A stretch of 32,240 bases of DNA from assembly GCA_945873565.1 (NCBI GenBank), contig CAMCDL010000007.1, positions 1 through 32,240 on the forward strand, in the 5' to 3' direction. The DNA comes from an uncultured Selenomonadaceae bacterium. Its GTDB lineage: Bacteria > Bacillota > Negativicutes > Selenomonadales > Selenomonadaceae. Positions within the stretch are counted from its first letter, which is position 1. Every line of letters starts with the position of its first letter. The notes under the pieces were generated by a model. It was given only the letters and a program-made list of their open reading frames with translations, was not told the DNA's origin and searched no databases. Position numbers and translations under genes: made by a program. Shown here piece after piece: positions 16,780-21,153 of the stretch.

Positions 16780-18077
16780 TTTGTCAGCTCCTCTAATTCC
16801 TTATAAAAGTCAGGGTACGATATTCTAACACAGTCTGGCTCTTCAATTTCAGCTCCAGCACCAGCAAGGCCAAGTATAGCAATGCTCATAGCCATTCTGT
16901 GATCATCATAGCTGAAGCAGGACGCCTTTACTGACTCTTTTCCAGAACCATGTATAACCAGGCCATCCTCTGTACCCTCAATACAGTCCATCAGCTTATT
17001 ATACTGATCTGTAATAGCCTGCAGACGGTCAGTCTCCTTTACCCTCAGCTCTCCAGCACCAGTAATTACAGTATCTCCGTCAGCAAACATCGCTGCCACT
17101 GCAATTGCTGGAATTTCGTCAATAAGCCGTGGCATTATATCAGCACCAAACTCTGTGCCATGCAGCTTTGCGCTTTTTACCAGAATATCAGCCACTGGCT
17201 CAGCTCCGCTTACACGCTCATTCAGCATAGTTATGTCAGCCCCCATATTCCTGAGAACGTCAATAATACCTGTACGAGTAGGATTTATTCCTACATTTTT
17301 GAGAAGAAGCTCACTATCAGGAATTATAGAACCAGCCACCAGCCAATATGCCGCTGAGCTGATATCGCCTGGCACTATAAGCTCTTCTGGCATTTTCAGC
17401 TCATCTGGAGCCTCAAGGCTTACTGATGTTCCTGCATATTCAAGCTTTACCCCCATCGCTTCCAGCATAAGCTCAGTATGATTTCGGGAAACATATGGCT
17501 CTGTCACAGTGGTTCTTCCATCTGCAAAAAGGCCAGCCAGCAGTATTGCTGACTTAACCTGAGCGCTAGCCACTGGGCTGTCATAGCTGATTCCCTTCAG
17601 ACAGCCCTCAGCTGGTATTACAGTAATAGGCAGCTTCTTATTGCCTTCACGTCCCACAATCTTTGCCCCCATCATAGAAAGAGGCTTTATTACTCTGCCC
17701 ATAGGACGCTTATGCAAGGATGCGTCACCAGTAAAGGTTGATACAAATGGCTGAGCAGACAGTATACCCATCAGCAGTCTCAGTGTAGTGCCTGAATTTC
17801 CTGCATCCAGAAGAGTTGCTGGTTCCTTGAGGCCATTTAAGCCATTACCCTTGACTACCAGCTCTGTATCACTGATTATATCAACATCAGCACCCAACGC
17901 TTTCATACAGGCCACTGTAGACAAACAGTCAGCAGAAGGAAGGAAATTTTTAATCCTTACAGGCTTACTGCCCAATGCTGAAAACATAACACTTCTGTGA
18001 GATACTGATTTATCTCCTGGAATTATCAGCTCCCCGCGAAGCCCCCTCATCGCCTTATTAATAGTAAGCTTTTTCAT
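16776..18077 (-). CDS. aroA: 3-phosphoshikimate 1-carboxyvinyltransferase (EPSP synthase)
   Basis: Condenses shikimate-3-phosphate with PEP in the shikimate pathway. The 433 residues show the N-terminal GDKSVSHRSVMFSALG, LDAGNSGTTLRLLMG, GDASLHKRPMGRVI, the C-terminal DEIPAIAVAAMFADG and RVKETDRLQAI, all EPSP synthase signatures. In the PEP-site motif it has LDAGNSGTT, where many homologues have L-x-N-A-G-T-A/S. A moderate ribosome site AAGGAAAG precedes the ATG. It follows the BaiN-type flavoprotein gene after 22 bases and overlaps cmk. Confidence 0.97.
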   Translation of the reverse strand: MKKLTINKAMRGLRGELIIPGDKSVSHRSVMFSALGSKPVRIKNFLPSADCLSTVACMKALGADVDIISDTELVVKGNGLNGLKEPATLLDAGNSGTTLRLLMGILSAQPFVSTFTGDASLHKRPMGRVIKPLSMMGAKIVGREGNKKLPITVIPAEGCLKGISYDSPVASAQVKSAILLAGLFADGRTTVTEPYVSRNHTELMLEAMGVKLEYAGTSVSLEAPDELKMPEELIVPGDISSAAYWLVAGSIIPDSELLLKNVGINPTRTGIIDVLRNMGADITMLNERVSGAEPVADILVKSAKLHGTEFGADIMPRLIDEIPAIAVAAMFADGDTVITGAGELRVKETDRLQAITDQYNKLMDCIEGTEDGLVIHGSGKESVKASCFSYDDHRMAMSIAILGLAGAGAEIEEPDCVRISYPDFYKELEELTK

Positions 18078-20225: not shown

Positions 20226-20486
20226 TCAATATATATGATACTGCTTCCAAGGGATGTTCTTTAAGGGAACTGTCTTTAAGAAATCCACAATATCCTTACG
20301 GCCATAGTAATGCGGCGTTCCGTCATTATCCTGGCTCATCAGGATTATAGGCATTCCCGGGAAGTATGGTGAAATACCAGCCCGGAATTTAGTTGCTCTG
20401 TAGGTGTAATTCGTAACCTCAGGCTTTACACAAATGATAGCAAAGGTCACACCCTGTTCTATTATTACTGATCCATGTACAACCAT
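20226..20486 (-). CDS. Small protein of unknown function (86 aa)
   Basis: Not assigned to a named family. It starts MVVHGSVIIEQGVTFAIICVK and ends with a Pro/Tyr/aromatic-rich tail; the middle has ISPYFPGMPIILMSQDNDGTPHYYGR. There is no signal peptide, membrane segment or metal motif. It is likely a small cytosolic alpha/beta protein; I have a vague memory of similar sequences in other Negativicutes. It is real rather than a shadow: it has its own extended -10 promoter, a ribosome site and a following hairpin, and nothing lies opposite. The start is ambiguous between GTG 20495, ATG 20492 and ATG 20486; GAGG eight bases before 20486 favours the last. Confidence 0.75.
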   Translation of the reverse strand: MVVHGSVIIEQGVTFAIICVKPEVTNYTYRATKFRAGISPYFPGMPIILMSQDNDGTPHYYGRKDIVDFLKTVPLKNIPWKQYHIY

Positions 20487-20520
20487 TGACATCACCTCGC
20501 AGCTCCCTATTTACTTTATT

Positions 20521-20605: not shown

Positions 20606-20649
20606 ATCCCAAGTGTTATTTTAATCATAAAAAAATATTTGTTTGCCTA

Positions 20650-20678
20650 TTGCAAGAACATTTTTTCTATGCTATAAT
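20650..20678 (+). promoter_or_regulatory. Promoter of the LysM-like gene
   Basis: TTGCAA, 17-base spacer, perfect TATAAT with extended -10 (ATGCTATAAT) on the plus strand. The expected start near 20685 is exactly where the 15-bp repeat array begins. Confidence 0.7.
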
Positions 20679-20685
20679 CCATACA

Positions 20686-20745
20686 AAAGTTCATCAAAAG
20701 TATGTTCGGCAAAAATATATTCGCTAAAAAGATGTTCGCTTATAT
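20686..20745 (+). repeat. Four 15-bp direct repeats in the leader of the LysM-like gene
   Basis: Exact 15-base period: AAAGTTCATCAAAAG, TATGTTCGGCAAAAA, TATATTCGCTAAAAA, GATGTTCGCTTATAT. GTTC (ATTC in copy 3) recurs at the same position in each. The array fills the region between the transcription start and the ribosome site. Read in frame it gives the repeating peptide MFGKN-IFAKK-MFAYI, but that frame has no ribosome site. Confidence 0.75.
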
Positions 20746-20776
20746 CATATCAATTTACCAAAGGGAGCTGTCTAAA

Positions 20777-21085
20777 ATGAAAGATTACATTGTAAAATTC
20801 GTATACCTATTTGCTATTTCAATTATTTTTCTCGCAGTACCAATGCACCTTGGAAATCATTATCTGAGAGCTTCTGAATTTGATACCGTCACCATACAGG
20901 CTAATGAATGCATATGGGATATTGCTGGCAAGTATACTGTCAATACTGAAGATAAGGCTGAGCTTGTTGAGGCAATCTGTGAAATAAATGACATTTCACC
21001 TTCAGACGTAGTAAAACCTGGCCAGCTCATACAGGTTCCAGTTATAGACAGAGCTGAAGGCATACGTGTTGCCAGCAATAACTAA
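20777..21085 (+). CDS. Small membrane-anchored LysM-like protein (YneA-like size and layout)
   Basis: 102 residues, the only plus-strand gene. An N-terminal membrane helix (FVYLFAISIIFLAVPM, about 8-23) is followed by a single degenerate LysM-type domain: FDTVTIQANECIWDIAGKY ... AICEINDIS...VVKPGQLIQVPV. The layout (short cytosolic tail, one helix, extracytoplasmic LysM) resembles YneA-type division suppressors, but the similarity is architectural only and neither lexA nor recA is nearby. The track starts at 20702; ATG 20777 is chosen because AGGGAG lies about 9 bases upstream. It has its own promoter and a strong terminator, so it is a single-gene unit. The DNA opposite is non-coding. Confidence 0.85.
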   Translation: MKDYIVKFVYLFAISIIFLAVPMHLGNHYLRASEFDTVTIQANECIWDIAGKYTVNTEDKAELVEAICEINDISPSDVVKPGQLIQVPVIDRAEGIRVASNN

Positions 21086-21116
21086 GCCCAACCCTCCAAC
21101 ATATTATAAGACACAG

Positions 21117-21149
21117 AAAAAAGACCTCGAAAATTTCGAGGTCTTTTTT
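21117..21149. terminator. Perfect bidirectional terminator between LysM-like gene and thrS
   Basis: AAAAAA, then GACCTCGAAA-A-TTTCGAGGTC (10-bp perfect arms), then TTTTTT. It serves the plus-strand LysM gene, ending 31 bases upstream, and can stop transcripts coming from thrS on the minus strand. Confidence 0.93.
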
Positions 21150-21153
21150 CTGC

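Follow-up and report, generated by a model that had tools for sequence, protein, structure and literature searches.

What do four direct repeats of 15 bp do in the leader of a gene for a small LysM-like membrane protein? The gene lies in a 32,240-nucleotide stretch of Selenomonadaceae DNA (hereafter the window). The original prediction had RTTC recurring there four times at one phase, from the predicted transcription start to a point before the ribosome site, and saw in the prevailing form, ATGTTCG, half of a LexA box. Our sequence comparisons indicate that the four repeats are very probably a tandem LexA operator array in the leader of a yneA ortholog, accompanied by a fifth box between the −35 and −10 elements, and that together they would place the gene under tight, late SOS control.

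The repeats, the promoter and the gene

Direct reading confirms the described layout. The half-sites GTTC, GTTC, ATTC and GTTC start at 20689, 20704, 20719 and 20734, a step of exactly 15 bp that is kept from 20689 to 20737, and the repeats begin close to the predicted start of transcription (about 20685) and end 5′ of the ribosome site (20760–20767). With the register corrected, the repeat unit is a 12-bp LexA-type box with RTTC at its end, plus a 3-bp linker. The features of the locus are listed below, with scores in bits from the LexA matrix described in the next section.

20633–20644 (+), possible extra LexA-like site 5′ of the −35, AAATATTTGTTT; 8.5 bits, weak
20650–20678 (+), sigma-70-type promoter: −35 TTGCAA (20650–20655), 17-bp spacer, −10 TATAAT (20673–20678) preceded by TG
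20656–20667 (+), candidate LexA box in the −35/−10 spacer, GAACATTTTTTC; 11.7 bits, highest of the window; position kept in orthologs
20681–20692 (+), candidate leader LexA box 1, ATACAAAAGTTC (compare GAACAAAAGTTC in relatives); 8.8 bits, second highest of the window
20696–20707 (+), candidate leader LexA box 2, AAAAGTATGTTC, 5′ half-site decayed; 7.4 bits, 15 bp on from box 1
20711–20722 (+), candidate leader LexA box 3, AAAAATATATTC, 5′ half-site decayed; 5.3 bits, 15 bp on from box 2
20726–20737 (+), candidate leader LexA box 4, AAAAAGATGTTC, 5′ half-site decayed; 5.1 bits, 15 bp on from box 3
20760–20767 (+), ribosome binding site, AAAGGGAG, from sequence
20777–21085 (+), YneA-like gene, 102 aa, with an N-terminal hydrophobic segment and a LysM domain (residues 39–88)
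21114–21152 (no strand), perfect 19-bp inverted repeat in the yneA/thrS interval, a probable bidirectional terminator by sequence

The promoter matches the consensus at 10 of 12 positions, and orthologous leaders share its layout. The initial inventory of repeats had overlooked a better fifth box, the one in the promoter spacer; lying between the −35 and the −10, it joins box 1, which covers the predicted transcription start, in a placement that would block RNA polymerase. The Firmicutes-type LexA box is GAACN4GTTC and occurs in SOS promoters such as that of yneA. Against this core the spacer box has one mismatch and the leader boxes have two to three, mostly in the 5′ half; boxes 2–4 of the window species retain the 3′ half-site only, an A-tract having taken the place of the 5′ half. 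Boxes 5′ of the −35 are also present in some relatives.

The 32-kb window has a single match to four RTTC half-sites separated by 11 bp, and 100 dinucleotide shuffles gave none. Tandem Repeats Finder (TRF) reports a 15-bp period at 20695–20739 (80% matches, score 55); it also reports short tandem repeats elsewhere in the window, at 17369–17408 and 38–94, with periods of 18 bp and 17 bp. Genome-wide, runs of three RTTC spaced by 15 bp are not rare (4 matches, as compared to 7 and 9 in reversed controls); what is rare is four RTTC in LexA register 5′ of a yneA-like gene.

The 102-aa product was expected to have the layout of YneA, and this is borne out by a LysM match (PF01476, 24.5 bits against a cut-off of 20.9), a near-full-length match to the YneA model NF010723 (positions 6–86 of 87) and ortholog alignment. 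Since the NF010723 score of 40.6 bits falls below the curated cut-off of 60, we call the product YneA-like rather than YneA. Its single N-terminal transmembrane segment, recognized by inspection as a hydrophobic N-terminus conserved in orthologs, precedes a C-terminal LysM domain. In Bacillus subtilis, YneA is likewise a small SOS-controlled protein in which a lone N-terminal transmembrane segment is followed by a single C-terminal LysM (PMC13396833). The window product shares this layout but differs in scoring below the NCBIfam equivalog cut-off and in having no adjoining lexA; by analogy, it would inhibit division. Divergent to the gene lies an 89-aa open reading frame with a GTG start (20226–20495, − strand) and no Pfam or NCBIfam match; an EQGVTFAI-like motif of this reverse-strand frame recurs 5′ of yneA in several relatives, both within the family and at class level.

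Of 61 relatives, 36 have a yneA ortholog, and an alignment query (E < 1e-24) gave strong orthologs in 68 of 189 Selenomonadaceae genomes, the window's own and 67 others. The array stands without a close-relative comparison because the sole same-genus genome compared lacks yneA. Scans of the named genomes gave no match with the window protein and seven named records with a Selenomonas ortholog.

These orthologs bear on a coding origin of the repeats, in which MFGKN/IFAKK/MFAYI would be a real or decayed N-terminal repeat translated from an ATG at 20702. No stop interrupts the frame after that position, and a 15-bp period preserves frame, yet we give this reading almost no credence. In orthologs, translation begins at the position corresponding to 20777, the start served by the ribosome site, and the upstream start is not conserved: the phase of the array relative to the gene is spread 12/11/10 over the three frames, and many orthologs have in-frame stops. 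We therefore rejected both the coding repeat and the start at 20702.

Register and spacing in the leaders of relatives

In the class-level relatives outside Selenomonadaceae, classical Firmicutes LexA boxes stand at two places that match the positions in the window. One is in or near the −35/−10 spacer, often as GAACATATGTAC, and the other is in the leader, often as GAACAAATGTTC. From these out-of-family boxes only, a symmetrised 12-bp matrix of 15 bits was trained. Over the 32-kb window it ranks the spacer box at 20656 first and leader box 1 at 20681 second, and the summed score of four units in a 15-bp register is best at 20681 (+26.6), with the next-best position at −9.4. Because a matrix trained outside the family picks both the boxes and the four-by-15 register, the register of the direct repeat is exactly that of LexA boxes. 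The assignment of ATGTTCG to a LexA half-site is supported by the same matrix and by the boxes of relatives.

Alignment of orthologous leaders, proposed earlier as the check on which the repeats might fail, shows them to be present, and both the site and its position within orthologous promoters are conserved. We compared 68 leaders of 200 bp each, including that of the window, of which 54 are non-redundant. Among these 54, LexA-box pairs numbered 50 at a lag of 15 bp and 0 at lags of 14 and 16 bp. Dinucleotide shuffles yielded on average 0.01 pairs, and never more than 1, at lag 15. Since the leaders share ancestry, the count is not one of independent events. Pairs at a lag of 13 bp numbered 5, with five such steps in G069. 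The shared spacing could come in part from descent, yet the linkers and box sequences have widely diverged.

The 15-bp direct repeats had originally been taken to argue against LexA. In relatives, however, the equivalent 15-bp units are palindromic LexA boxes, in arrays of two, three or four. Examples are GAACAAAAGTTC-TTG-GAACATAAATTC-CCG-GAACAAAAATTT in one relative, GAACAGAAGTTC-TTG-GAACAAAAATTC-TCA-GAACGAAAATTC-TTA-GAACAGAAATTT in G171 and a four-unit array in G184; the listing of relatives' arrays follows 15-bp chains by design, and the lag test on 54 leaders supplies the unbiased count. The named species Selenomonas artemidis and S. noxia also carry the 15-bp array, and the tandem arrangement is common to many Selenomonadaceae.

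Do all four leader boxes contribute? Function may be limited to the spacer box and box 1, with boxes 2–4 as decaying slippage leftovers that add little, a possibility that we take seriously but consider unlikely. The scores of boxes 3 and 4 reach only some 5 bits, and neither has the 5′ half. Units 2–4 are identical at 11–13 of 15 positions, as expected of recent tandem copies, and boxes 2–4 resemble recent duplicates of a single unit. A minor in vivo effect has also been reported for the dinBox1b half-site of phage GIL01 (PMC4551915). Nonetheless, the four RTTC half-sites of the window are held at exactly 15 bp, and in other genera the later units are palindromic at exactly that step, with no pairs at 14 or 16 bp across 54 leaders. 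The distance from the spacer box to its neighbours, unlike this fixed step, varies from 24 to 32 bp among leaders.

The same comparisons address whether the repeats act as RNA, as protein- or sRNA-binding elements of the 5′ UTR. Boxes 2–4 do fall within the predicted transcribed leader, but like boxes are also present in the promoter spacer, which is not transcribed, and, in relatives, 5′ of the −35, and it is in duplex DNA that the motif forms a palindrome. Compared with shuffles, the leader RNA has an unremarkable fold (z = 0.35), and an Rfam search gave no match in the leader, its weak rows all lying on or around the terminator at 21114–21152. We regard an RNA element as very improbable.

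Outside the family, the leader architecture differs. The class-level leaders have no box pair at 15 bp and instead carry one strong palindromic leader box, most scoring 12–19 bits, as compared to a median of 11.6 for the best box per Selenomonadaceae leader. In Selenomonadaceae, one strong box seems to have been replaced by several weaker ones.

LexA and its other candidate sites

The window genome encodes a LexA (L034, on contig C129; TIGR00498, 215 bits) with the helix-turn-helix, the Ala-Gly cleavage site and the Ser and Lys residues present. In Bacillus, lexA and yneA are divergent neighbours, and coordinates place lexA in the same relation to yneA in G038, G039, G041, G043 and G045. In the window genome lexA lies on another contig.

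Candidate SOS sites of the window genome were sampled at lexA, recA and yneA. The lexA leader carries the one-sided sites GAACATGTTTTT and AAAAAAATGTTC, similar in look to the yneA boxes, and recA carries CTACAAATGTTT just 5′ of the −10. In the non-coding part of the genome, AAAANNATGTTC is confined to yneA and lexA. The exact palindrome GAACN4GTTC is found at only three places in the genome, so that a search for it alone would miss the regulon. Across Selenomonadaceae, lexA leaders have no 15-bp box pair (n = 33), and recA leaders have one in 1 of 13 (G006).

Across the 189 family genomes, full LexA is present in 65 of the 68 with yneA and in 17 of the 121 without, counts that are not corrected for relatedness. 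This co-occurrence is pertinent to whether some other DNA-binding protein reads the 15-bp direct repeat. By itself the array of the window does look like an RTTC direct repeat rather than a palindrome. Its register nevertheless coincides with the LexA boxes defined by the outgroup, the units of relatives are palindromic, and AAAANNATGTTC sites recur in the lexA leader, so a reader other than LexA is highly improbable. A different DNA-binding array, an RNA-binding repeat and a coding repeat had all been offered as explanations; the palindromic units, the lack of a fold or Rfam signal and the phase of the array lead us to replace all three with the LexA array.

Two further features of LexA proteins were observed. 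The wing of the DNA-binding domain reads RDEEI in the window genome and RDPTK in relatives, and this might go with the one-sided boxes of the window species. Two LexA homologs, L107 (G001, C15:15629–16204) and L102 (G010, C6:694110–694703), keep the DNA-binding domain, with the Ala-Gly site and the Ser/Lys dyad replaced (by VYRGE, NDDLAS and AVLRL in G001); as judged from these residues they are possibly non-cleavable LexA relatives. Both genomes are without yneA.

How a tandem array may act

LexA is usually viewed as a repressor on isolated boxes, the affinity of which sets the order of induction. In the tandem LexA array proposed here, RNA polymerase would be kept off the promoter by dimers at the spacer box and box 1. 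Dimers at boxes 2–4 would extend LexA coverage in the downstream direction, increase occupancy overall and form a roadblock to polymerase that has already started. With LexA occupying all boxes, the division inhibitor would be made only once most LexA has been cleaved, giving tight, late SOS induction of the yneA-like gene. The array thus probably ensures that a gene harmful to its own cell stays firmly repressed until DNA is severely damaged.

The fixed 15-bp step would be compatible with side-by-side, possibly cooperative binding. By calculation, 15 bp is about 1.4 helical turns, which puts neighbouring dimers on nearly opposite faces of the DNA. We propose, tentatively, that in Selenomonadaceae LexA forms an ordered row of dimers at this step, in which contacts between neighbours fill weak and half-site boxes and make yneA a sharp, late switch. 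If true, LexA would be acting here in a manner that has not been described for boxes that are single or that overlap.

Among the closest known arrangements is the Firmicutes-type box, with which the locus shares the type of target gene, a promoter-overlapping box and, with mismatches, the core. It departs from the single strong Firmicutes palindrome in having two to four weak boxes at exactly 15 bp, 3′ of the −10, with the 5′ halves lost in the window species. The LexA motif of alphaproteobacteria is the direct repeat GTTCN7GTTC, with half-sites 11 bp apart head to tail; this type was rejected for the window, where the spacing is 15 bp and the units of relatives are palindromes.

Overlapping SOS boxes in Escherichia coli colicin operons bind two LexA dimers and give tight repression (PMC2994835, PMC4482635). 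There, too, several LexA dimers near or just 3′ of the −10 keep a self-harming product off. Those boxes, however, are of the proteobacterial CTG-N10-CAG type, are two and overlapping, and serve plasmid genes, whereas up to four boxes here precede a chromosomal gene for a presumed division inhibitor. Phage GIL01 pairs a full LexA box with an adjoining half-site, to which binding is weak and non-cooperative unless the phage protein gp7 is present (PMC4551915). This pair (dinBox1/dinBox1b) resembles the present array in joining a full Gram-positive-type box to a half-site 3′ of the transcription start; it differs in that its right half-sites, counted from the printed sequence, are 11 bp apart and possibly overlap, as compared to 15 bp and up to four boxes here. 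Our search of the open-access literature found no paper on LexA in Negativicutes and none on tandem LexA boxes at yneA or on adjacent LexA.

Set against the one strong outgroup box, a family-wide array of weak boxes at 15 bp suggests that affinity has been traded for number and geometry, and the trade-off falls at a gene whose leaky expression would stop division. The array also makes LexA cooperativity testable through linker length, for which the leaders of S. noxia and S. artemidis can be used. At one locus (L157, on contig C79 of G069), six LexA-like boxes lie 5′ of the yneA −35 with a 13-bp period, unlike that of the leader array.
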